Below are positions 481 to 11,765 of a stretch of DNA of 12,008 bases, piece after piece (within the stretch, counting starts at the first letter, position 1; each line of letters begins with the position of its first letter). The position numbers and the translations under genes were made by a program. The notes beneath the pieces are model-generated. The model saw nothing but the letters and a program-made list of their open reading frames with translations. It was not told where the DNA came from and ran no database searches. The stretch is from Candidatus Brocadiaceae bacterium (GTDB lineage: Bacteria; Planctomycetota; Brocadiia; SM23-32), in NCBI GenBank assembly GCA_003567495.1, contig PWZK01000183.1, positions 1 through 12,008 of the forward strand, written 5' to 3'.

Positions 481-593
481 GGTTTCAGCACTTATAACGG
501 CTTTACTATTTTACCGCGCATTAGCATAAACGCAGCCGCTGGCCTACTCCTGCAGAAAATAACCGCTTTCAAAAGTGTGTTCTTCGGCTTCGC

Positions 594-658
594 GTTTAAG
601 GATTTTTCCTTAAACAGGAATTCTTCACAGCACGGTGTTTAAGGTTTTTTCCTTAAAC
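594..658. repeat. Two tandem near-identical hairpins at the 3' end of the Dnd-like operon
   Basis: Two copies of an 8-bp inverted repeat (arms GTTTAAGG and CCTTAAAC) lie 43 bases apart. One is at 594..615 with loop ATTTTT and one at 637..658 with loop TTTTTT. The arms are identical in both copies. On the minus strand the right-hand copy contains the last Val codon and the TAA stop of the DndE-HerA gene. Neither hairpin is followed by a U-tract in the minus-strand transcript, so they are not classical intrinsic terminators. They may still stabilise or end the mRNA, or be copies of a small dispersed palindromic repeat. Confidence 0.6.
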
Positions 659-2284
659 AAAGGCCAGCTCGGTCTTGATTTTCTGGAATTCCCGCCCATC
701 ATCGAAGCTTTTTGTTATTACCTCAAAAGGATTCAAGTTGGCGATTTGAGTTTGCAGATTCTTGGCAGTCCCCGCACTGCACCCCAGCAATTCCTGTATG
801 GAACTCTTTTTTGCGGTTTGACACTGAAAGACATAAACAAATTCCAGCAGCTCCCGGTAATCAAATCCCTGTTGGTAATAATCCTTCGGGGACTGAGAAG
901 CGAGGAAGACATATATTCCCTTTGAACGGCCCTCCCTGATTATCTCTTGCAGAAAGCGGTTCTTCGCCCCCAGGTAGTGATGCGCCTCATCTATTACCAG
1001 AATGGTGCGCAGAGTGCGTTTGTAGTCATCAAAAGGACTTTCCGGCAGCAGTCTCATCTCTTTATAGAGTTTTTCAATCAAAAGAAAAGGCGGCAGTTCC
1101 CTGCAGACCGAAAGCCCGGAAAGGTCAACAATCATGGTTTTACCCGACAGGCAGTCGATGGGTTTTTCGGTGCTTTCGTGCGACCAGAAAATATCATAAT
1201 TGGCCAGCTGCTCAACTGCCTCGGTGAGGTTATTGTGCCCGCTTTGATCCATCAAAGCTATATCCGCAAGCTCTCTGAAATCAGGGTATGGTCTCTCAGG
1301 GTGTGCTTCCCGGGCTAGAGCATAGGCGCGAACTATGGCATCCTTGAGCGCCCCTCTTTGTTTGCTGCCTAATCTGTCGCCGATTATAGCAAAAGTCTCC
1401 AGTTTCTCCTGCGCCGCAATCTTAATCGATTTTTCATCGTAATCGCTCAGGACAAAGGGATTGATCGGGAGCGTGGGATTCTCTTGCTGCTGGAGCCTGT
1501 AGATTTCGGCCCCGGTGCTCTCTGCAAATTTATCGTTCGCCGAAACATCCCCCTTGTAATCCAAAAAGATGAAGTTGACTTTCCGGTTCGACTGAGACCG
1601 TATCCCGGACAGCATTTTCAAAAGAAGCTGAGTCTTGCCCACCCCTGAAGTGCCCACTATAGCCACATGGGCATTGGTATGCTTCAGAGAGTCACTTATA
1701 TCCATCGATACAGGGTTGCCGCCGGGGATTGAGCTGCCTACAGGTATGCTGAGATGCCCACGAAACATCTCCAGGTCACTTTTGATCATGTCATCGATCT
1801 CATCAATGCCGTGATTGGCAAACTCGGACAGGGTGCAGTAAAAACTGTCTACATCACGAGTGTTCTCTTCAAACATTTCCCATAATTCAGCCGCGCCGGT
1901 GTCAATGTGATTTTTTACGATCGAGGGTTCTGAATACATCTGTTCCCGGTTCAGCACCTTTCCATACACATGACAGGCCAGCGAGTAAATAAGCATATCA
2001 TCCTGCAGGAAGCAATGCGCGCTTATTTCCCCACCCTCTTTATTATGGCTCTCGGGCACTGAAGGGCCGTCTTTTGCCATTGAAAGGGAAAACGCCAGTT
2101 TGGCAATCGGTGCTTTATCCAGTCCGGTATGCTCATGCAAATCTGAAATGTATTGATCCGCTTTTTTCGATAGAATTATCGTTTTCGGCCTGTGGGGCAT
2201 TTCAGTGGGTATGTTTTTAATGAGTCCGGCATGTTCAAAAAGAGCTTCTTCCTGCTGAGCGGTCGTTTTATCTTGTTTTATCAT
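653..2284 (-). CDS. DndE-like domain fused to a HerA/FtsK-type ATPase
   Basis: This 543-residue protein joins two modules. Residues about 34-138 resemble DndE, the small DNA-binding protein of phosphorothioation: an N-terminal ILSKKADQYISDLHEHTGL segment, a following SLSMAKDGPSVPES segment, the LIYSLACHVYG strand/helix and a terminal VKNHIDTGAAELW. Residues about 196-520 form a HerA-like RecA fold: Walker A GTSGVGKT (211-218), FLDYKGD (240-246), Walker B TILVIDEAHHYLG (427-439), an arginine-rich REGRSKG (450-456) and LASQSP (461-466). HerA proteins are usually hexameric DNA-translocating ATPases. The start chosen is MIKQDKTT, 1 base after the DndD stop, with GGGAGAAG upstream. A longer frame from 2386 would overlap DndD by about 100 bases and lacks support. 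It is probably the translocase or DNA-loading part of a DNA modification or defence complex. The HerA call is secure; the DndE call rests on remembered family patterns. Confidence 0.8.
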   Translation of the reverse strand: MIKQDKTTAQQEEALFEHAGLIKNIPTEMPHRPKTIILSKKADQYISDLHEHTGLDKAPIAKLAFSLSMAKDGPSVPESHNKEGGEISAHCFLQDDMLIYSLACHVYGKVLNREQMYSEPSIVKNHIDTGAAELWEMFEENTRDVDSFYCTLSEFANHGIDEIDDMIKSDLEMFRGHLSIPVGSSIPGGNPVSMDISDSLKHTNAHVAIVGTSGVGKTQLLLKMLSGIRSQSNRKVNFIFLDYKGDVSANDKFAESTGAEIYRLQQQENPTLPINPFVLSDYDEKSIKIAAQEKLETFAIIGDRLGSKQRGALKDAIVRAYALAREAHPERPYPDFRELADIALMDQSGHNNLTEAVEQLANYDIFWSHESTEKPIDCLSGKTMIVDLSGLSVCRELPPFLLIEKLYKEMRLLPESPFDDYKRTLRTILVIDEAHHYLGAKNRFLQEIIREGRSKGIYVFLASQSPKDYYQQGFDYRELLEFVYVFQCQTAKKSSIQELLGCSAGTAKNLQTQIANLNPFEVITKSFDDGREFQKIKTELAFV

Positions 2285-2285
2285 C

Positions 2286-4274
2286 TTACTTCTCCCAGAA
2301 ATAATTTGTTTTAAGAGTGTTTTGATCGCGATCAAGAAGCCCCCAGCCGCACAGAAAAGGCTTGAGTGTGCTGAATGCCTTTTCATCGACGGCAGTGTTG
2401 GAGGAAATAATCACAACCTGATCGGCAGCTTCAGGAAAATAGCTGCTGACAATTTTATCCCGATAATTTTCATCAAGCTGCTCAAGAGGCGCATCAAAGA
2501 TTACCGGGAGATTCAGTTCCGAAATCCTGGTCAGCCCCCATAGCAGAGAGAAGGCAAATATTTCTCTTTCACCATCCGAAAGGGAAGAAATACCGATCTG
2601 CTGGTGGTGCTGATCTGTGAGGGTGATTCTGAATGAGTCCTCATCTATCTGAAGGTCACTGATTGAGTCGGAGTCCCGAAAAAGTGAATGGAACATATTA
2701 AAAGTATTCTCACGCAGCATATTGATTTTGCTGTTTCTGATTTTCCCGACAAAATCCTCCAGCAGCGCAGAAATGCTTTCTTTTTCCCTGATGAGAGCTT
2801 TCTTTTTATCCGATATTTTCTGTTTTTCTGAAAGCTCGTTTAATTCGTTTTCAAGCTCTGTAATATTTTCCGAAATATCTTTTATCCGGATATCCAGGGT
2901 ATTTTGTTCTGACCGGAGCAGGTGCATCTGATTTTCGCTCTCTTCAGCGATACTTTTTAATTCGCTGTAGATATCCTGTTCTTTTTTTGAGATGCCCTCG
3001 GTGGGGGATTCCTCTACCAGAGCAATTTCATCGGCCAGTCTGTTTCGATCTTCTATCAGTTTTTCCAGTTCCGAAACGCCGCTTCTTTGAAACTCTTCGA
3101 TACGCCCGCATATCTGTCTTTTGTCTTTTTCCTGAAAAATGGCCCCTATATTGCGGGATACGCTCGCTCTGCATTTTTCACGCAGCACCTTGAGTATTTC
3201 GTCTTTGAGTTCATCTCTGAGTTCTGTCGGTATGGAATCTTCTCCCGGGGGGACTTTCCCATCTATAGCAGACACTATCGACTCAGAGAGCTGCTCAGAC
3301 ATATCATAAAGTGTGGTATAGACCTTTGAATCTTCCCCGGCTTCCAGTTTTTCCACTAAAGGAGGAAACAATTCTGCGGCCGGAGCAAGCGGAAGATGGT
3401 TTTCGATAATGGATTCGATCTGCTCTTGTTTTTGCTTTTTCTTCGCTGTAAGCTCCCCTTTTTTCTCTCCCCTGTCATGCACCTCAATGGCGAACTTTTC
3501 ATCAAATTCGCTGTATTTTCTGCTGAGCTTCTTTTTTGCTTCTTCCCCTTCTGACTGGACTTTTTTCAGATGCTTTTCCACTTTGGTCTTTTCCTTTTCT
3601 GTTTTTTTAAGCGTGAGTCTTCTCTCCGAAATTTCAGTTCTCTTTAAATCGACGTCAACACCGGCGACATCTTCAAAATCCGTAAGTCTCTCCATCAGCC
3701 TGCTGCTTTCCAGGTCATCTCTGAGCTGAAGGATATGCCAGATACCGAGCACGGAGTCGAGTGAATCTTTTATTTTATCACCTGAATCGTCCATCTCAAT
3801 TTTCCGTATCTGATCTTTTATAAAGAAGAAAAATTCCGCGGCTTCCCGCGGAATCAATGAATTGATATAATCCTGCAGAATGTCCCTTTTCCCTGCCGCG
3901 ATATTCTCGCCGTTTTTGTATACATCCAGATGCTGCGTATAGTGCCGCTCCCTGAAGCGTTCTTTTTTGTTTCCCTCATCGCGCCAGCAGCGGTGCAGGT
4001 GAAGTTCATCGCCGCCGTCTGTTTCAATAACCAGCCGGATATCCACATCCCTGTTGCCTTTCTTTTTCTCTTCCCTGTTTATGTTGGAGAGAACCTTTCT
4101 TTTTTCGGCACCGTGCAGACACATAATTACCGCATCGGCCAGGGTTGTTTTCCCCGCACCCGTTACGCCGCCGATAAGAAAAATATTTTCTTTTTTGCCC
4201 ACATCGGGGAACTCAATGGTTGTCGGCTCCCGAAAGGACTGCAAATTTTGTATCGTGATTTTTTTGAGTTTCAT
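2286..4274 (-). CDS. dndD: DndD-like SMC/Rad50-type ATPase
   Basis: This 662-residue protein matches the usual DndD length (about 660). It opens with MKLKKITIQNLQSF and has Walker A GGVTGAGKTT (35-44) and an FFFF-containing Q-loop region (148-160). Charged coiled-coil stretches follow (about 205-290 and 400-515). The C-terminus holds the ABC signature SSLSDGEREI (563-572), Walker B LPVIFDAPLEQLD (589-601), and a YFPEAADQVVIISS stretch with a C-terminal tail of the kind found in DndD. No CxxC zinc hook is visible. In Dnd systems DndD is an ATPase that may expose or nick DNA for the DndC/DndE modification complex. Its ATG overlaps the previous stop by 4 bases (ATGA), with GGAGAC as ribosome binding site. 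A generic SMC-like defence ATPase is the main alternative, but the neighbours favour DndD. Confidence 0.8.
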   Translation of the reverse strand: MKLKKITIQNLQSFREPTTIEFPDVGKKENIFLIGGVTGAGKTTLADAVIMCLHGAEKRKVLSNINREEKKKGNRDVDIRLVIETDGGDELHLHRCWRDEGNKKERFRERHYTQHLDVYKNGENIAAGKRDILQDYINSLIPREAAEFFFFIKDQIRKIEMDDSGDKIKDSLDSVLGIWHILQLRDDLESSRLMERLTDFEDVAGVDVDLKRTEISERRLTLKKTEKEKTKVEKHLKKVQSEGEEAKKKLSRKYSEFDEKFAIEVHDRGEKKGELTAKKKQKQEQIESIIENHLPLAPAAELFPPLVEKLEAGEDSKVYTTLYDMSEQLSESIVSAIDGKVPPGEDSIPTELRDELKDEILKVLREKCRASVSRNIGAIFQEKDKRQICGRIEEFQRSGVSELEKLIEDRNRLADEIALVEESPTEGISKKEQDIYSELKSIAEESENQMHLLRSEQNTLDIRIKDISENITELENELNELSEKQKISDKKKALIREKESISALLEDFVGKIRNSKINMLRENTFNMFHSLFRDSDSISDLQIDEDSFRITLTDQHHQQIGISSLSDGEREIFAFSLLWGLTRISELNLPVIFDAPLEQLDENYRDKIVSSYFPEAADQVVIISSNTAVDEKAFSTLKPFLCGWGLLDRDQNTLKTNYFWEK

Positions 4275-4495
4275 GTTTTGGTCTCCAAATCAGAATTAAT
4301 GATTTCGATAAAGTCCTCATAAATACCTCGCCTTCTCTCCATGAAAGCATACTTTCTGACTGTATCAAGCAGATTTTTGACCGTATCAAAGTCCACGCCG
4401 GATTCGCTGCACAGTTCCCGGAGCAGTTTCAGATTGTCTTCGCTAATAGGCCGGGGCCTGGGTATATTATTTTTTTGTTCTTTTTTCATGGTCAT
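4271..4495 (-). CDS. Small protein of the kind associated with Dnd-type DNA modification loci
   Basis: This 74-residue protein is probably cytoplasmic. It has a basic N-terminus (MTMKKEQKNNIPRPRP), a helical middle and a C-terminal KYAFMERRRGIYEDFIEIIN. That last pattern (tyrosine, arginine cluster, glycine, acidic helix) matches my memory of short proteins encoded just before dndD in some phosphorothioation clusters. I cannot verify this by a search, and no activity is known to me. It starts 17 bases after the TPR gene stop, with AAAGAGGT as ribosome binding site. A second ATG two codons further in is an alternative start. Its TGA overlaps the dndD ATG, so translation is probably coupled and the two products made together. 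Confidence 0.75.
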   Translation of the reverse strand: MTMKKEQKNNIPRPRPISEDNLKLLRELCSESGVDFDTVKNLLDTVRKYAFMERRRGIYEDFIEIINSDLETKT

Positions 4496-4512
4496 ATAAC
4501 CTCTTTATATTA

Positions 4513-5685
4513 TTAAGATGATCGACCTGATGTCAGCTTCATGTGTCTGCGCACCTTGTCCAGGGCATTCTCGGTTATTTTTGAATTGGGCCTGATTTTA
4601 AGGGATTTTTCAAAAGCCTGGACGGATTTATTAAACTGTCCGTTTTCGTAATAAGCAGCCCCCAGATTATGCCACGCCTCGGAGTCTTCCCGGTTGATAA
4701 CCAAAGCTCTCTGGAAATATTCAATTGCTTTTTTGTGCTGCTTCAGGCAGCCATAAAGCAGGCCTGTTTTGTGCAGGAAAAACTGTTTGTTTGCAGCGAA
4801 TGTTTCAACTTCAACAGCCTCCTTGTAAACTTCTATGGCCTCATCGAACTGGTTGTTACTTTCATAAGTGACGGCGAGCATATTTCTTACCCTCGGCTGC
4901 ATTGGCTCTATCTGAAGCGAACTGAGGTATGCCTGCCTGGCCTCACTGTACTGCTTTAGAACAAGATGTGCGGCAGCTTTCTGGCCCCATGCCTCGTAAT
5001 GTCCGGGGTTGATACTGAGGGCTTTTGAGCAGGCATCAATAGCTGCGCTGCTGTCTCCGGCAGACAGATATGCCATGCCGAGCGAGCACCATGAATCGGC
5101 GCTGTCGGGGTTCATTTCCAAAGACTTCCTGATAAGTTCGACGGCTTTTTTTTGGTTTCCCTGATTAAGACACAACCAGCCCATATAACTCCATGCTCTT
5201 GCATGTTCGGGATCGATTTGCACCGCTTTCTGAAAGGCTTCGAGCGCGTTTTGGTAATCTTTCGGCTGTGTGCTCATGCGTTTTACAGCGGGGATATCAA
5301 CATGGAGAGTGCCGAGAAAAAACCACGCTTCTGCACACGTAGGGTCTATCTGCAGAGCTTTTATGGTATCTGTTCGTGACAACTCGGGATATGCTGCATC
5401 GATGAAACCCACCCTGAAATGACGCGACAATTTTGTGAATTCAGCATCGAGTTCCAAAGCCTTTTTCCCTGCCTTTTCGGCCTGTCTCCTATCACCAATC
5501 TGATCATATATATCTTCCAGAAACGACCATGCAGCCTTCAGTTTTGGGCTGCTTTTCAGTGCTTTGAAAGCTGATTTTACAGCTTCTTCGGGGTTTCCAT
5601 CAGCGCGTTGTTTTTTTGCGAGTCTGAACCATTCCATAGAATCCTTCGGTTCAGTTTCTTCCTCTTGTATTTTGTGATCTGTCAT
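4513..5685 (-). CDS. Cytoplasmic tetratricopeptide repeat protein (TPR-1)
   Basis: The 390-residue protein consists almost wholly of about nine to ten 34-residue TPR units. They are recognisable by recurring patterns such as ARAWSYMGWLCLNQGNQKKA, SADSWCSLGMAYLSAGDSSA and SEAWHNLGAAYYENGQFNKS, each followed by an AhxxhPxs turn. TPR arrays form superhelical protein-binding scaffolds. There is no signal peptide, membrane segment or enzymatic domain. I chose the internal MTDHK start because GGAGG lies exactly 8 bases upstream; the longer frame from 5715 would begin with that leader sequence. The stop is 17 bases from the small Dnd-associated gene, so this is the repeat gene most closely joined to the Dnd-like core. 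It may be a scaffold or specificity partner of that ATPase pair, but this is inferred from position. Confidence 0.85.
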   Translation of the reverse strand: MTDHKIQEEETEPKDSMEWFRLAKKQRADGNPEEAVKSAFKALKSSPKLKAAWSFLEDIYDQIGDRRQAEKAGKKALELDAEFTKLSRHFRVGFIDAAYPELSRTDTIKALQIDPTCAEAWFFLGTLHVDIPAVKRMSTQPKDYQNALEAFQKAVQIDPEHARAWSYMGWLCLNQGNQKKAVELIRKSLEMNPDSADSWCSLGMAYLSAGDSSAAIDACSKALSINPGHYEAWGQKAAAHLVLKQYSEARQAYLSSLQIEPMQPRVRNMLAVTYESNNQFDEAIEVYKEAVEVETFAANKQFFLHKTGLLYGCLKQHKKAIEYFQRALVINREDSEAWHNLGAAYYENGQFNKSVQAFEKSLKIRPNSKITENALDKVRRHMKLTSGRSS

Positions 5686-5724
5686 CTTTAATACCTCCAA
5701 AGTTTGGATTTTCATAGCGAGTAA
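5686..5724 (-). promoter_or_regulatory. TPR-1 translation start region: shared leader motif and ribosome binding site
   Basis: Reading the minus strand: TTACTC (5719..5724), a 20-base gap, GGAGG (5694..5698), an 8-base spacer with a TAAAG end, then ATG at 5685. The same elements precede the ankyrin and TPR-2 genes, with an identical 8-base spacing. This decides the short start. Confidence 0.6.
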
Positions 5725-5763
5725 GGAGGCGGCGGTTTTTATAAGATTCCGCCCGCCGCCTCC
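5725..5763 (-). promoter_or_regulatory. Strong GC-rich hairpin between the ankyrin and TPR-1 genes
   Basis: An 11-bp perfect stem pairs GGAGGCGGCGG (5725..5735) with CCGCCGCCTCC (5753..5763) around a 17-base loop. In the minus-strand transcript there is no U-run after it, so it is unlikely to be a simple terminator. It directly abuts the TTACTC leader motif. It may act as an mRNA-processing or stability element, or as an attenuator that lowers expression of the downstream genes. Confidence 0.6.
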
Positions 5764-5820
5764 CTTAGTACTTTTAAGCTGCCGGTGTTAACCTTTAAAT
5801 TACCGCGACAGCATGTCCTT

Positions 5821-7560
5821 TCACCATGACATCTCCGATATCTGCTCCTCACGCCTTTCGCTCGACGACTGGCCTCCATTTTCCCTAAGCAAATCTATGG
5901 TAGCCTGTTCGTTACCTACTCGTGTGGCGTAATCAACCGCTGTAAGTCCTGAGAAATGCGTGAAATGAACGTCTGCACCCTTTTCAATCAGTAAGTTAGC
6001 CATATCAGGGTTCCCTGCTTCCGCAGCCATCTGAAGCGGACTTCGGGATATCTGTGCATGAGCGTTAATATCCGCATCATGCTCGATCAGAATTTCCGCG
6101 ATATCTATATATCCCTCGGCGGCGGCAATATGAAGTGGTGTAATGCCATCATCGGCGTGCGCACTCACAGATGCACCGTTTTCAATCAGAAAGCGAACTA
6201 TCTTGACCTGACCTTCTTGGGAAGCCATATGCAGCGGCGTGTATCCCAGCATATCCTTCGCACTGATATCCGCTCCATGACTGATCAGTAACTCGGTCAT
6301 TTCAAGCTTCCCGGCCTCGCAGCTTTTATGAAGAGGCGTGCGTCCCGATTCATCCTTTTCGTGGATATCCTCACCACATTTAATAAGAAATTCTGCCCTG
6401 CCGGTTTTTCCCGAAGCAGCAGTCTCGTGCAAGCCACCCTGCTTTCTATAATCAGCTCCGCGATCCCGCAAAAACTTTGCCATGCGAATCAGATCATCAA
6501 TTACCGCATCAGGATCATTATTTTGAGGATTCATTACAAAATCTAATTTATCATGCTGAAGAGGGTCCAAAGTAACATCAAGCGGAGTAAATCTCTGCAA
6601 GGTCATAGCATTTATATCCGCTCCTTTATCCAGCAGCAGCTCAACAAAGTTATATTTTCTCTGCACAACGGCCAAATGTAAAGGAGTTCCTGTTTCGTCG
6701 GCCAGAGCTTCAAGGTTCGCCCCGTGCTTGATCAGCAGCTTCGCTATTTCATACCGACCTGCCCGAATGGCGCTGTGAAGCGGAGTTCCCATAACGAAGT
6801 TTCTTGCACTGACATCCGCCCCCTCGTTCAACAGGGCCACAACCGTTTCATATTGCCCGTCTATGGTGGCTCTGAAAAGAGGTGTTACTCCCATCTTATC
6901 GCGAGAATCCAAATCTGCCCCATGTTTGCTCAGAAACTCAACCATGCCCGGCAAGCCATAAGAGGCGGCCATGTGAAGCGGAGTAACATTGTTTTCATTT
7001 CGAGCATCAATGTTTGCCCCGCTGCTTAGCAGAAGCTCGGCCAGGTCATAACGCTCACCTATGGCCGCCAGGTGCAGTGTTGTAGCCAAGAGCATACCAG
7101 AGCTTGGAGTCACTATGCTCTCGATTGTTGCATTGACATCTGCTCCGCGCTCCAGCAAGAGTTTGGCTACTTCACATTGGCCCTTGCTTTTGTTCAGTTC
7201 CAACATTCTACGAAATGGATTCTCGGGATCGCTTATAAGGCTGCCTTCATCTTCGAGAAGTCCCGCGCTCTGATGCAGTGGGGTTAAGCCTTTCATGCTG
7301 TAAACATTGACGTTTGCCCCGCTGTTGATAAGAAGCCGGACCATATCGGGCTGAGCCTGCAGAGCCGCAATATGAAGCGGAGTTCTTCCCGCCTCGTCTC
7401 TCACATTAACATCAGCCCCCTGGCTGATCAGCTGCTCAGCGCTGTCACAGCGTCCCGCAGCAACCGCTTTGTGAAGCGGAGTTGACTTCTGAGTAACTTC
7501 TTCTGAATCACTTCGATTTTCGTCGCTGCACTTTTCCATCGTCTTTTCATATTCCGTCAT
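5821..7560 (-). CDS. Ankyrin repeat protein, about 15 repeats
   Basis: The 579-residue protein is a nearly continuous ankyrin array from residue 26 to about 560. About 15 repeats show the TPLHxAAxxG...LLxxGADhN pattern, for example RTPLHIAALQAQPDMVRLLI and YTPLHMASQEGQVKIVRFLI. The third repeat carries an insertion of about 25 residues near 103-128. The array is interrupted by a degenerate segment (about 326-356), giving two blocks. Ankyrin stacks bind proteins. No catalytic domain, signal peptide or membrane segment is visible, so it is probably a soluble adaptor. The MTEYEK start is chosen because GGAGG lies 8 bases upstream (7569..7573). It sits between two TPR genes and reads toward the Dnd-like core, which suggests co-expression. 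Its own binding partner is unknown. Confidence 0.88.
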   Translation of the reverse strand: MTEYEKTMEKCSDENRSDSEEVTQKSTPLHKAVAAGRCDSAEQLISQGADVNVRDEAGRTPLHIAALQAQPDMVRLLINSGANVNVYSMKGLTPLHQSAGLLEDEGSLISDPENPFRRMLELNKSKGQCEVAKLLLERGADVNATIESIVTPSSGMLLATTLHLAAIGERYDLAELLLSSGANIDARNENNVTPLHMAASYGLPGMVEFLSKHGADLDSRDKMGVTPLFRATIDGQYETVVALLNEGADVSARNFVMGTPLHSAIRAGRYEIAKLLIKHGANLEALADETGTPLHLAVVQRKYNFVELLLDKGADINAMTLQRFTPLDVTLDPLQHDKLDFVMNPQNNDPDAVIDDLIRMAKFLRDRGADYRKQGGLHETAASGKTGRAEFLIKCGEDIHEKDESGRTPLHKSCEAGKLEMTELLISHGADISAKDMLGYTPLHMASQEGQVKIVRFLIENGASVSAHADDGITPLHIAAAEGYIDIAEILIEHDADINAHAQISRSPLQMAAEAGNPDMANLLIEKGADVHFTHFSGLTAVDYATRVGNEQATIDLLRENGGQSSSERREEQISEMSW

Positions 7561-7590
7561 TTTTACTGCCTCCATAAATATAGAGTAAAA
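7561..7590 (-). promoter_or_regulatory. Ankyrin gene translation start region: shared leader motif and ribosome binding site
   Basis: On the minus strand TTTTACTC (7583..7590) is followed by GGAGG (7569..7573), 8 spacer bases ending in TAAAA, and ATG at 7560. It matches the leaders of both TPR genes in order and spacing. Confidence 0.6.
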
Positions 7591-7592
7591 GT

Positions 7593-7613
7593 ATTTCCCG
7601 GCACCCGGGAAAT
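7593..7613 (-). promoter_or_regulatory. Perfect 9-bp hairpin in the ankyrin gene leader
   Basis: ATTTCCCGG (7593..7601) and CCGGGAAAT (7605..7613) pair perfectly around a 3-base CAC loop. It lies 2 bases beyond the TTTTACTC motif. No U-tract follows in the minus-strand transcript, so it is probably a leader structure or a protein binding site. Confidence 0.5.
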
Positions 7614-7628
7614 GGTGATTGGAAGTGA

Positions 7629-7645
7629 GGCGGCTTCACGCCGCC
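7629..7645 (-). promoter_or_regulatory. GC-rich hairpin between the TPR-2 and ankyrin genes
   Basis: GGCGGC (7629..7634) and GCCGCC (7640..7645) pair around a 5-base loop. It occupies the place corresponding to the stronger hairpin at 5725..5763 and shares its GGCGG/GCCGCC arms, which suggests a common origin for the two spacers. Confidence 0.5.
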
Positions 7646-7667
7646 CCATCTCCCGGTTAAAACTGTT

Positions 7668-9059
7668 TTAAATTTGACTCAAGACGACCTGGTTAAATCT
7701 CTCGGCAAACTTCTCGTCCAAACCACTAAGCCTGCTGTAGAAGCTCCGGGCCTCTTTTTGCTCCCATGCTTCCGGATTAAACTTGTCGAGTGTTTCCCAT
7801 AAGAAAGTATCATCCGGCGCTATCCTGATGGCTTTGTCGAAAGCTTCTGCCGATATATTAACTGGCTCGTCTGCTGGACGCCTCTTTTTATTCCAGGCCA
7901 GTGTCTGAACATCCTTCTGATCGTATTCAATCGCTTTTTGATAAGCACCCAGGGCATCATTGACCTGGCCGCAATCTGCGTAGACATCACCCAGTTTTTT
8001 CCAAAGAAAGCGATTTTCGGGATCAAGCTCAATGGTCTGCCTGATTGTCTGAATAGCGTTATCAAGCTTACCATTCTCCTGATCTGCATCGGCTTTTTTC
8101 AGCAGGGTCATTACAGTGTAGAAAACAGTGTTGTTGTTCCTTGGGAATTTTTCGCAGAGCTCAAATAATTGCTGATAGTCCCCTAAAGCTTCACATGCAT
8201 CGCACATATTAGCCCAGGGGAAAAATTCATCAGGGCAAAGTTCAAGCGATTTCACTCCGCTCTCTATAGCTTTCTGATAATTTTTAACCTCCATATACAT
8301 CGTATGCATATACCTCCAGATGTCTACCGTAACATGACCCATGCTCTGTGACTTTTCAAACGCCTGGATGGCTTTTTCGGCATTTCCAACCTCCATATAT
8401 GCCAGACCTAAGCGATACCATTCTGCCGGATCGCTTTCGTTAAGTTCCACGCGCTTGAGGTAAAAGTCAAGGAACTCTTTCTCAGTTTTTCCAATGTAAG
8501 CCTCATGCAAGTCTTCGAAGGCGCATATTGAATCTGAAACGAGGCTTGCTTCTCTGAGCGTTTCAATGGCCGCATCAAAATCTTCCATCTTATTATATTC
8601 ATTACCCTTATTAAGCATTGCTGAATATAATATTTCCTGATTTGGCTTTAACTCCAACACTTTGTCGCAGGTTGTGACCGCTTCACTGCTATACCCATTA
8701 TCAGAGTAGGCTACTGCTAAGTACAACCAAATCTGAGGATTATCAGGGTCCGCTTTAATAGCTTCTTTATAGGCATTAAAGCACTTTTCAGGAGTGCCGG
8801 AGTGCTGCAAACTGCTGGCAATGGAGACCAAAAGCTTTACGTCGCCCTGGGTCGCCGCAAGTTCCACCGCTTTATCAAGCGCCTCATCGCCTTTCTCATT
8901 TTCTTCTTCCCTATAATAATATCTGCTCAGTTCGCGCCATGCCGATGCATCGTCCGGATTACACTCGACGGCCTTCCTGCACTCTTCCAACGTTTTCTCG
9001 TCAACTTCCTGCTTCATTCCTTCATCCGTCACTACCGAGTCCGCCACATAAATCACCAT
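7668..9059 (-). CDS. Cytoplasmic tetratricopeptide repeat protein (TPR-2), first gene of the operon
   Basis: The 463-residue protein starts MVIYVADSVVTDEG and then carries a long series of TPR-like helical pairs, for example DDASAWRELSRYYYREEENE, NPQIWLYLAVAYSDNGYSSE, DPAEWYRLGLAYMEVGNAEK and NRFLWKKLGDVYADCGQVND. Several repeats are irregular, and the C-terminal 90 residues (from about NKKRRPADEP) drift from the consensus. There is no signal peptide or enzyme domain. The start at 9059 has GGAGG 8 bases upstream; the longer frame to 9221 would add 54 non-repeat residues that include the leader. It is preceded by a plausible promoter (9177..9205), so it is likely the first gene of the six-gene operon. 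It is similar in style to TPR-1 but is not an obvious recent duplicate. Confidence 0.85.
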   Translation of the reverse strand: MVIYVADSVVTDEGMKQEVDEKTLEECRKAVECNPDDASAWRELSRYYYREEENEKGDEALDKAVELAATQGDVKLLVSIASSLQHSGTPEKCFNAYKEAIKADPDNPQIWLYLAVAYSDNGYSSEAVTTCDKVLELKPNQEILYSAMLNKGNEYNKMEDFDAAIETLREASLVSDSICAFEDLHEAYIGKTEKEFLDFYLKRVELNESDPAEWYRLGLAYMEVGNAEKAIQAFEKSQSMGHVTVDIWRYMHTMYMEVKNYQKAIESGVKSLELCPDEFFPWANMCDACEALGDYQQLFELCEKFPRNNNTVFYTVMTLLKKADADQENGKLDNAIQTIRQTIELDPENRFLWKKLGDVYADCGQVNDALGAYQKAIEYDQKDVQTLAWNKKRRPADEPVNISAEAFDKAIRIAPDDTFLWETLDKFNPEAWEQKEARSFYSRLSGLDEKFAERFNQVVLSQI

Positions 9060-9137: not shown

Positions 9138-9176
9138 ATAATGTTGTGTTATTTCACCAGTCGTAGTTTTTCGGGT

Positions 9177-9205
9177 TTTATAACAGAGATTTTTTTTCTT
9201 CCCAA
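9177..9205 (-). promoter_or_regulatory. Probable promoter of the TPR/ankyrin/Dnd-like operon
   Basis: On the minus strand: TTGGGA (9200..9205, four of six -35 positions), a 17-base A-rich spacer and TATAAA (9177..9182, five of six -10 positions). The transcript would start near 9170 and carry a leader of about 110 bases. It is the best match upstream of the first gene, but I cannot exclude recognition by an alternative sigma factor. Confidence 0.45.
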
Positions 9206-9358
9206 CATAACAGATAAACAAAACGGCGCTGAAACGCTGTCCCGTGGTGGTATGTCTTATTGCGGGGTGTTATAAAATACGATTTCCTCCGTCATGTGAA
9301 ATACAGTGATGGCTTTTTAACAGGAACCGGAATCTTTATTTCAGAAAGGAGGCCAGTT

Positions 9359-9550
9359 ATGTTTTCAATGGTGAAAAAAATTTTCAAAAGTGGGCGTATG
9401 TCGCGCAGAAGTATCTCTGTAAAAAACATGCACCCGGCTCAGGAGTATGCAGGTATGAGCCGGGGATGGTTTGAAATGAATTCTGAAGAAGAACGAAGGC
9501 AGGACATCGAATCGGCCAGGAAAATGGCCAAAAAAATTATAAGTAACTGA
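9359..9550 (+). CDS. Small basic protein of unknown function
   Basis: This 63-residue frame starts at ATG 9359 after a strong AAAGGAGG (9345..9352), which favours it over the longer frame from 9260. The N-terminus is basic (MVKKIFKSGRMSRRSISVKN); a central AGMSRGWFEM and a charged helix near the C-terminus (SEEERRQDIESARKMAKKII) follow. There is no membrane segment or cysteine pair, and I do not recognise the family. A TATAAA-like box at 9271 could serve as -10, but a matching -35 is poor. It lies between the divergent Dnd-like operon and the sigma factor gene and might belong to either regulation unit or stand alone. Confidence 0.6.
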   Translation: MFSMVKKIFKSGRMSRRSISVKNMHPAQEYAGMSRGWFEMNSEEERRQDIESARKMAKKIISN

Positions 9551-9664: not shown

Positions 9665-10309
9665 ATGCCAAAACCAAGTGACGCGGAGATAATAAAAAGC
9701 TGCCTTGAGGGTAATGCGGATAGCTTTGGGGGTCTCGCCGGACGTTATTGTTTCTACGCAATGCGCATACCGCTCTCCGCTCCGTTCTTCTTTTCCCGGC
9801 CCGATGCGGAAGATGTCGTTCAGGAAGTAATGCTGGCACTTTATGAAAACCTCAGCGGGGTCAGCAACATACGCGGCTTCCTGGCCAAAGCGGCCCACAA
9901 TAAGTGCGTGGATCAGATCAGAAAAAGAGAAGCCATAAAAAGACTGAAGCCGGTTATGGAGACAGATATGCCAAATCACAACTCATCTGATGATAATAAA
10001 CAGCAAAGTGATATCCTGGAGAATCCGGGAAAGCGGATAAATTACATATCTGAATACGCTCTGAATTCCCGCGCCATAGAGCGGCTGACAAACTTTATGG
10101 ACAAGCTCGGGAAACCCTGCGGGCCGCTCATTAAACGCCGCTACTTCGATGAGATGTCCTACAGGCAGCTCGGGGAGAGCCTTGAAATACCGGTCAACCA
10201 GGTGGGGGTGTATTTATCGCGCTGTATGGCCCACCTGGCAAAAAACATGGAAGCCGACAAAGGGTTCTGGGAGGAACTGGAAGAGTTGTTAGACGAGGAG
10301 GCGGCATGA
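9665..10309 (+). CDS. ECF-type RNA polymerase sigma factor
   Basis: The 214-residue protein has the two conserved parts of an ECF sigma factor. Region 2 spans about residues 6-90, with PDAEDVVQEVMLALYENL (46-63) for core polymerase binding and IRGFLAKAAHNKCVDQIRKR (69-88) for -10 recognition. Region 4 spans about 130-195, with a helix-turn-helix KRRYFDEMSYRQLGESLEIP (157-176) for the -35 element. A variable linker lies between (about 95-125). AGGAA at 9651 gives a moderate ribosome binding site. The stop is 1 base before the ATG of the membrane protein gene, so the two are probably translated together, the classic layout of a sigma factor and its anti-sigma. The controlled genes probably include this operon; control of the divergent Dnd-like operon is possible but unproven. 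Confidence 0.88.
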   Translation: MPKPSDAEIIKSCLEGNADSFGGLAGRYCFYAMRIPLSAPFFFSRPDAEDVVQEVMLALYENLSGVSNIRGFLAKAAHNKCVDQIRKREAIKRLKPVMETDMPNHNSSDDNKQQSDILENPGKRINYISEYALNSRAIERLTNFMDKLGKPCGPLIKRRYFDEMSYRQLGESLEIPVNQVGVYLSRCMAHLAKNMEADKGFWEELEELLDEEAA

Positions 10310-10310
10310 T

Positions 10311-11765
10311 ATGAGGGAGAAAGAATACAGAAAATATTTCGAGGGCCTGTTTCGTGAACACACCGGCCCGGTTGTGCCGCGGCCCGAGGCCCCGGAAGAA
10401 AACATGACCGACCGCGATAAGGCCCAGCTTCGCCTCCATCTGCTGACCAGGGCGCTTACTCAATACAAGGGACTCATCTTCGAACCTGACGAAACCGAGC
10501 AGCGGCCCGAGAACCTGGATGAACAGGTCGATAATATCATGGCCATCATTGCAGAGCGCAGTGCTGAGCGGGAAACTGAGAATAACCGGCCCGGGCCGGA
10601 TGAAAAAAAAACGAACGGCGAGATGAACCGAGATGAATCCTGCGAACCGCGGCCTGCGGGTGAAAACGAAGTGGATGATGCGGGCCACAACGGGAAAATC
10701 ATACTCTTCTCCCGCTGGCAGAGAGTAATCACAGCGGCCGCAGCGGCAGCGGTGCTGATTGTTGTTCTCTGGCTTGCCCACTTTACCCCCGACGAACCTC
10801 CACCGACCCCCGTAGAAAGAAAGCAGGTCGCTTATCTGCTTGATATACAGGAACAAATCCGGCTGCTGAGGCCCGATGAGTCCGGGAAAATACCAGGGAA
10901 AATACTAAAGCAGGACCCGGCCAGTGTGGTGCTGTATTCTCAGGATGAGATATCTGTTCCAGAAGGCGGCGCGGCCAAGGTGATTTTCCCAGGAAGCGTA
11001 TATATACTGAGCGAAGGAAACCATTTCAGGGTGCGGGAAGATGCGCTGGAACGGCAGGAACAGGGGAGCTGGCACGCGCAAAGGCCGGTCATGTCCACTC
11101 CCGACGCCGAAGACGCTCTTGCCATACTGGAAGCAGAACGGATTGCTCTGCCCCCTGACCGGATGTTTGCTCAAATCACCCCACGGGATGTGCGTGCGGT
11201 GGAGCCGAAAGTGACCGTGCTCTCACCGCGCGGCCGCACACTCTCGCAGACCCCCACTTTTATCTGGGAAGACCCGAGCGAGAAAGACGATCCGGTTTAT
11301 GAACTCGCCATAGCCCTCCTTGATGAGATAGGAGAGCCCGCAGCGGCCTCTTCCTGGCATGAAACAGGGCAGCAGAAGTTCTCCTGGGACGAGACCGGCT
11401 GGCCTGATGCTCAGCGGGGGCAGCAATACATGGTGTATATTCGCAGAAACGGGGAGCTTCTTACCGACGGCAGCTTCAGGTTCCACATCATGTCGCAACA
11501 GGATGCCGAGGCCCTCGGGGAGCGCCTTAGCACCATAAAAGAAACCCTGCCCGAAGGCCGGGCGAGACTTTTCCTGAAAGCGAACCTGCTGATGAGCGAG
11601 CGTTGGCGCTGCCATGCGGAAGCGCGCATGAAAGCCGAAACGCTTGTAAGCTCCGCCCCCGGGGACGTGACCTACCTGAAGCTGCTTCAGCACTGCTACC
11701 AGGCTCTTGACCTGTCCGAAAAAGTAAGGGAAGTTCAAAGACGGCTGGATGCGCTGGATAAGTGA
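10311..11765 (+). CDS. Membrane-anchored anti-sigma / FecR-like protein
   Basis: The 484-residue protein has a charged cytoplasmic N-terminal part (1-136), one transmembrane helix at about 137-158 (RWQRVITAAAAAAVLIVVLW) and a large outer part. The outer part contains a FecR-like beta region (about 200-260: SVPEGGAAKVIFPGSVYILS), then a Pro-rich beta domain with TPTFIWEDPSEKDDPVYELA, and a C-terminal helical, TPR-like tail (about 400-480). The layout fits a protein that holds the sigma factor at the membrane and senses an envelope signal. No lipobox is visible. GAGGAGG (10295..10301) is the ribosome binding site; an earlier ATG at 10306 stops at once. It is probably co-translated with the sigma gene. 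The exact family is not certain. Confidence 0.75.
   Translation: MREKEYRKYFEGLFREHTGPVVPRPEAPEENMTDRDKAQLRLHLLTRALTQYKGLIFEPDETEQRPENLDEQVDNIMAIIAERSAERETENNRPGPDEKKTNGEMNRDESCEPRPAGENEVDDAGHNGKIILFSRWQRVITAAAAAAVLIVVLWLAHFTPDEPPPTPVERKQVAYLLDIQEQIRLLRPDESGKIPGKILKQDPASVVLYSQDEISVPEGGAAKVIFPGSVYILSEGNHFRVREDALERQEQGSWHAQRPVMSTPDAEDALAILEAERIALPPDRMFAQITPRDVRAVEPKVTVLSPRGRTLSQTPTFIWEDPSEKDDPVYELAIALLDEIGEPAAASSWHETGQQKFSWDETGWPDAQRGQQYMVYIRRNGELLTDGSFRFHIMSQQDAEALGERLSTIKETLPEGRARLFLKANLLMSERWRCHAEARMKAETLVSSAPGDVTYLKLLQHCYQALDLSEKVREVQRRLDALDK

Follow-up and report, generated by a model that had tools for sequence, protein, structure and literature searches.

The window analyzed here is a 12,008-base stretch of DNA that makes up the entire contig PWZK01000183.1 (C60) of a metagenome-assembled genome (MAG) of a Candidatus Brocadiaceae bacterium (2.16 Mb, 387 contigs, 82% complete). 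Six co-directional minus-strand open reading frames (ORFs) occupy positions 653-9059 in the order TPR1, ANK, TPR2, a small gene (Sp), dndD, and dndE-herA. Our concern is the last three genes, which are related to parts of the Dnd DNA modification systems, and the place of the three upstream genes, which encode tetratricopeptide repeat (TPR) and ankyrin-repeat proteins, beside them. The six genes are as follows.

653-2284, minus strand: DndE-HerA (EH) fusion ATPase, 543 aa, with an N-terminal DndE domain and a C-terminal HerA/FtsK motor closest to DndH.
2286-4274, minus strand: DndD-clade ABC ATPase (TIGR03185), 662 aa, with no CxxC or CxC hook.
4271-4495, minus strand: Sp-DndD small protein (Sp; PF20306), 74 aa, a putative stand-alone counterpart of the DndD-docking C terminus of DndC.
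4513-5685, minus strand: TPR2, a TPR protein of 390 aa matched by TPR models, with the leader TTTGGAGGTATTAAAGATG, 17 nt before Sp.
5821-7560, minus strand: ANK, an ankyrin-repeat protein of 579 aa (PF00023, PF12796), with the leader TATGGAGGCAGTAAAAATG.
7668-9059, minus strand: TPR1, a TPR protein of 463 aa matched by TPR models, with the leader TTTGGAGGATGTAAAGATG.

Three of these starts involved a choice. For dndE-herA the ORF list also has an ATG at 2386, inside dndD, and 2284 was used; the TPR2 ORF is listed from 5715, and 5685 was taken; for ANK an in-frame ATG at 7575 is listed, but a Shine-Dalgarno sequence, judged by eye, fits 7560. With these starts, the intergenic gaps from TPR1 to dndE-herA are 107, 135, 17, -4, and 1 nt. 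An earlier reading made from the sequence alone (the sequence-only reading) had described six co-directional genes with a packed trio of small gene, dndD, and dndE-herA, a TPR gene 17 bases before the small gene, and six intact frames, and each of these descriptions holds, the TPR gene being TPR2 and the core ATPase motifs being present. All six frames are open, with ribosome sites and packing intact, and for each of five genes none of 200 mononucleotide shuffles stays open. The GC content at third codon positions (GC3) is 0.48 to 0.54 across all six genes versus 0.60 to 0.63 in the two flanking plus-strand genes. The proposal that all six form a single operon stood in part. TPR2, 17 nt from the packed trio, lies near enough to Sp for the two to be co-transcribed; with strong hairpins in both wide gaps, a single operon is less certain for TPR1, ANK, and TPR2. 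The predicted structures between and after the genes are these.

7561-7667, minus strand: hairpins between TPR1 and ANK, -43.8 kcal/mol, z -5.02, with 0 of 200 shuffles equally stable.
5686-5820, minus strand: hairpins between ANK and TPR2, -45.9 kcal/mol, z -4.31, with 0 of 200 shuffles equally stable.
590-662, minus strand: two palindrome copies directly after the DndE-HerA stop, a possible transcript end, with a direct repeat at 594-616/637-659 and a fold z of -4.65.

The two palindromes, at 594-616 and 637-659, are near-identical (GTTTAAGG and CCTTAAAC).

The window DndD scores 273.7 bits against TIGR03185 (cut-off, 245.85), the sole NCBIfam model that it passes, and has a Walker A motif, an LSDGE signature, and a Walker B motif; a motif check of the whole protein found neither CxxC nor CxC. 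Its score is 102 bits to one canonical DndD versus 272 to 375 bits to its own family. The HerA part of the fusion matches PF01935 and the PADLOC model of the DndH C terminus, and in a fold search with its predicted structure, a model of moderate confidence (mean pLDDT, 70.4; pTM, 0.55), the motor was closest to the DndH C-domain 7es4. The DndE part matches TIGR03184 over residues 38-132 with 27.3 bits, below the cut-off of 71.85, and is also backed by end-to-end alignment to relatives, many of which carry PF08870. The fold-search lists are dominated by the HerA motor, and the lack of a DndE row there is not evidence against the DndE half. With about 8000 candidates scored for each protein, the closest relatives beyond the window's own have 49% identity for DndE-HerA and about 34 to 35% for full-length DndD. 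The locus has the features that define the DndE-HerA/DndD core class, namely, the fusion beside a DndD-clade ATPase, with Sp before dndD.

Sp matches PF20306 (Sp-DndD), described in Pfam as a "small protein found in certain Dnd DNA modification systems," with 43.0 bits (cut-off, 27.2); a search of the accessible literature for Sp-DndD returned nothing. It also matches, below the cut-off, positions 384-445 of the 447-position DndC model TIGR03183. A hidden Markov model (HMM) built from 49 family Sp sequences, with the window's excluded, gives the window Sp 69.3 bits and in turn matches the C termini of DndC from Massilia (444-479, 21.4 bits) and Aliivibrio (449-500, 28.2 bits). In a 2025 study (PMC12193691), residues 433-482 of E. 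coli B7A DndC were modelled on the globular domain of DndD. The same study shows that the substitutions L458D/E462A/R471A in DndC disrupt binding to DndD (PMC12193691). The corresponding spacing, L-x3-E-x8-R, was looked for in two DndC proteins and has a single occurrence near the C terminus of each, and in alignments read by eye the window Sp seemingly keeps the L and the R and has V in place of E; the mutated E. coli residues were mapped by this spacing alone, as a search of E. coli DNA for dndC gave no match. We infer that Sp is the DndC docking segment encoded as a separate gene and that it would bind DndD.

A search of 5.8 billion proteins scored 8000 candidates, of which 894 are related to the fusion. 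For gene order we used 71 loci from many phyla, found in 84,980 species genomes with two peptides conserved in the main clade. Not every locus includes upstream DNA; Sp is present in 51 of the 71 within the DNA retrieved, and the 43 loci in which Sp is preceded by over 3 kb were treated as informative. The usual order is a methylase of the HSDR_N-N6 type (M), the specificity subunit HsdS (S), a variable slot, Sp, often an accessory gene for a protein of about 210 aa, dndD, and dndE-herA. Among the informative loci, M is found in 35, S in 36, and M and/or S in 36. With one DndC query at an E value of 1e-3, no ORF in the DNA retrieved for the 71 loci matches DndC, and the same query recovers another canonical DndC at 8.7e-101; a PP-loop motif, as in the sulfurtransferase, is absent from every ORF of the 71 loci. 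A canonical DndE query gave no match in these loci, in which the domain is present, a single-sequence phmmer search being too weak for DndE, and the DndB query had no positive control. Because the searches for S, TPR, and ankyrin genes used single queries, their counts may be too low.

We examined the gene directly before Sp in the 46 loci that contain Sp and have over 1 kb of DNA upstream of it. It is S in 15, a RhuM-family gene in 15, DarG, which is a macro-domain protein, in 4, a different accessory gene in 2, and a TdeIII-like endonuclease in 1, with other genes or none in 9 and a TPR or ankyrin gene in 0. Each slot gene takes the first fitting label, and L020 is counted under RhuM though it has DarT and DarG too. 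Together with HsdS, RhuM-family genes are the commonest occupants (L010, L014, L028, L043, and others), and a DarT-DarG toxin-antitoxin pair lies upstream of Sp in L020, L021, L026, and L058. L038 has a DNA methylase and a TdeIII-like restriction endonuclease (4535-7017) where M and S usually sit. Accessory genes of the ~210-aa type between Sp and dndD include one with a RAMA domain in L020 (7332-7985) and three in a row in L056 (3824-5750). In 1 of the 71 loci, L018, a GmrSD endonuclease gene (11512-13266) follows dndE-herA by a few nucleotides; its product presumably resembles DndI. By a length rule, 42 of the 71 loci are intact, 17 are cut or without DndD, and 12 have DndD or DndE-HerA in pieces, one of which, L004, may merely have a short DndD.

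Within the window's own order and phylum the family is sparse. A scan of its order found DndE-HerA in 1 of 10 genomes at an E value of 1e-20, the window's own, and a scan of its phylum found it in 3 of 392 at 1e-30, the window's own included, the others being a fragment and a contig end. The fragment (L094; G358, contig C5, near 487118) is a lone piece of DndE-HerA with no recognized DndD, a remnant in the same phylum. The rarity of the family in the phylum suggests horizontal gain. The idea that the core came from phages or plasmids found no support: no relative of DndE-HerA was confirmed in viral contigs, and 23 plasmid records match it, with at most 30.1% identity among the 20 listed and none covering 80% of the query.

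The sequence-only reading had noted the lack of dndC and dndB and set this against standard Dnd loci, which need DndC and usually DndB. The lack itself is real: neither gene was recognized in the window, and in the rest of the MAG TIGR03183 matches Sp alone (in controls, 5 of 14 genomes match, none over the cut-off), while TIGR03233 for DndB has no match (controls, 2 of 14, none over the cut-off). The contrast did not survive comparison with the fused class, in which DndC was found in none of the 71 loci and M and/or S in most of the informative ones. We therefore reject the loss of DndC as an anomaly; it is a mistake to see here a Dnd locus deprived of its DndC, since being without DndC is the usual state in the sampled family. 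The unusual feature of the window is that M and S are missing. A domain scan found neither in the window, which so differs from the common trait of its class. In the MAG, a family-type M from L018 used as the query gave no match at 1e-3, a search without a positive control, and M and S genes lie on contigs C374 and C357; by eye these are ordinary Type I genes, with each M frame broken off by the end of its contig.

The slot before Sp is filled by TPR2, with the other two repeat-protein genes upstream. A shared leader, TTTGGAGGNNNTAAAGATG, precedes TPR1 and TPR2 without mismatch and ANK with 2 mismatches, and it was not found before Sp, dndD, or dndE-herA. Across the whole MAG it occurs exactly solely before TPR1 and TPR2, and allowing up to 2 mismatches adds ANK and two other sites; a reversed-pattern control gave 1 match. 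We rejected the idea that the genome contains many cassettes like the trio, the leader being near absent elsewhere. Relatives in the MAG lie on one other contig alone for ANK and on five other contigs for TPR2 (22 to 35% identity), and a search of the order's 9 further genomes for TPR1 gave no clear ortholog, the best match scoring 45.7 bits. The sequence-only reading had raised the question of how often TPR or ankyrin genes adjoin such cores. In the main clade sampled, the linkage is not a recurring trait: with the three window proteins as queries (E value, 1e-5), TPR genes appeared in 1 of the 43 informative loci and ankyrin genes in 0, in addition to their absence from the slot in all 46 loci noted above. 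The exception is L038, in which two TPR genes lie 3 kb before Sp, beyond the DNA methylase and TdeIII endonuclease, and dndD is split in two frames. The accompanying idea of a TPR/ankyrin scaffold is weakened by the lack of linkage in sampled loci and kept open by the shared leader and the 17-nt junction. We read the trio as a separate unit, possibly gained along with the core, and the repeat proteins may or may not have a functional link to that core. A search of the accessible literature for TPR or ankyrin proteins together with Dnd showed no statement of coupling to the DndE-HerA class.

We lean towards a reading in which Sp, DndD, and DndE-HerA form the DNA-scanning or translocating core of a system from the base-methylation branch of Dnd-like systems and not from the phosphorothioate branch. 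Its observed basis is the family identity, the tight packing, the ATPase motifs, the absence of DndC, and the absence of adjoining M and S. A phosphorothioate-independent core, part of one of the two options in the sequence-only reading, is supported as probable. Drawing on the relatives and on canonical Dnd biochemistry, we picture the DndE part contacting DNA, DndD, as a Rad50-like ATPase, looping or clamping it, and the HerA ring pumping it, with Sp, as the equivalent of the DndC docking segment, plugging client proteins onto DndD. In relatives these clients would probably be the HSDR_N-methylase with HsdS, and perhaps the slot genes RhuM or DarTG. The window has neither M nor S in cis, and TPR2 occupies its slot, preceded by ANK and TPR1. 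Most likely its core remains a working scanning motor that acts on DNA, together either with the repeat proteins or with a client whose gene lies elsewhere. The best reading is that of a divergent core, related to the methylation branch, that is separated from its modification partners.

Several observations weigh against this reading. The 71 loci represent the main clade of the family and not the window's own lineage, and lineages like the window's can be under-sampled. The pairing with M and S is not universal, being lacking in 7 of the 43 informative loci (L020, L038, L041, L047, L054, L056, and L057), 5 of which keep full-length DndD and DndE-HerA; M/S-less cores exist beyond the window, as a minority. 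The window itself has no recognized nuclease or modification enzyme, and a client may be encoded in trans, since the MAG is 82% complete. Neither this analysis nor the passages of the literature consulted contain a functional test of the fused class. Finally, no branch in either tree is longer than that of the window's DndD/DndE-HerA pair (3.83 and 6.72 changes per column), and near-invariant columns are changed at 49 of 182 positions in DndE-HerA and 85 of 192 in DndD, exceeding the next most divergent rows; these long branches would fit relaxed constraint or a changed role. The same divergence is what would be expected of an orphaned, decaying locus that has lost M and S, with its core on the way out and the repeat genes as unrelated neighbours. 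Decay is common in the family, as the 12 loci in pieces and the fragment in the same phylum attest. We nevertheless hold it unlikely here, as the open frames that no shuffle reproduced, the ATPase motifs, the packing, and the ribosome sites are all intact.

It is likewise doubtful that the core works with M and S encoded elsewhere, either on sequence absent from the MAG or as the Type I genes on C374 and C357. Such genes do occur in the MAG, and 36 of 43 relatives have M and/or S alongside the core; on the other hand, the family-type M was not detected there, and where M and S were found in relatives they lie upstream in cis, whereas the window's contig reaches beyond the start of the operon and has plus-strand genes there, none of them M or S. 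Also doubtful is a Dnd-derived defence machine in which the repeat proteins have replaced the modification and specificity subunits: TPR2, docked via Sp and together with ANK and TPR1, would sense a protein, such as a phage component, and switch on the DndD-DndE-HerA motor, so that self and non-self would be told apart without a DNA mark. A phosphorothioate system with DndC and DndA in trans could point to DndD and DndE as the core of DndBCDE, to the incompleteness of the MAG, and to DndA-like cysteine desulfurases, which lay outside the searches, but we consider it highly improbable given that TIGR03183 finds only Sp in the MAG, that DndB was not found, and that DndC was found in none of the 71 loci. 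An assembly artefact that fused the repeat genes to the core is very unlikely as well; the junction is seen in this single contig of a 387-contig MAG alone, but it spans 17 nt with a fitting ribosome site, and the six genes share a GC3 distinct from that of the flanks.

Among the neighbours of the six genes, a plus-strand pair (9665-11765) comprises an ECF-type sigma factor gene and, 1 nt later, a gene for a 484-aa protein that has no Pfam or NCBIfam match and by eye resembles an anti-sigma or FecR-like protein with a membrane anchor. A short plus-strand ORF (9260-9550) is divergent from TPR1 and has an internal ATG behind a good Shine-Dalgarno sequence, giving a basic product of ~63 aa. An imperfect inverted repeat of 36 nt lies upstream of TPR1 (9150-9303), and downstream of the core the beginning of a further minus-strand ORF (1 to ~133), seen by eye, exits the contig end.

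DndD and DndE-HerA without DndC, the usual state in the sampled loci, need not mean a broken phosphorothioate locus. In the sampled family a DNA-scanning motor goes together with Type-I-like subunits for methylation and specificity, and what is probably the DndD-docking segment of DndC occurs as a separate gene. Sp suggests a plug by which varied clients (a sulfurtransferase, a methylase, and perhaps DarTG, RhuM, or repeat proteins) could be set on one motor.

A DndE-HerA/FtsK fusion beside a DndD-related ATPase is known as clade-3 HerA/FtsK, a published and widespread class (Rakesh, Aravind and Krishnan 2024, PMC10853773); the main text of that paper mentions neither HsdS nor HsdM. The window has the same fusion, the same neighbour, and a HerA motor in the clade of some DndH motors; it differs from the relatives fetched, which carry Type-I-like M and S, in being without even these. 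The literature searched showed no statement on the pairing of M and S with the fused class; the 2020 ABC-ATPase survey lay outside that search, and M and S in place of the DndC enzyme, with the DndC docking segment kept, may partly be described there. With canonical DndBCDE the window shares DndD, the DndE domain, and, as Sp, the docking part of DndC, whereas neither the DndC catalytic domain nor DndB was found and DndE is fused to HerA. Its motor is closest to the C-domain of the restriction protein DndH, whereas DndF, DndG, and the long N-terminal part of DndH were not recognized in the window. Like PbeABCD, it has an ABC ATPase, a DndE-like protein, and a small protein, and PADLOC PbeC models match its DndD, which differs in having no CxC/CxxC zinc hook; no PbeA HKD helicase-nuclease is among the window proteins scanned. 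As for MADS, M, S, and DndE-HerA of L018 match the mad2, mad5, and mad8 models and the window DndE-HerA matches mad8, and the MADS gene set presumably differs from that of the window. In comparison with Type I restriction-modification, HsdM, HsdS, and HsdR are all missing from the window, whereas most informative relatives have the HSDR_N-N6 methylase and HsdS upstream, with DndD-DndE-HerA standing in the place of the motor subunit.

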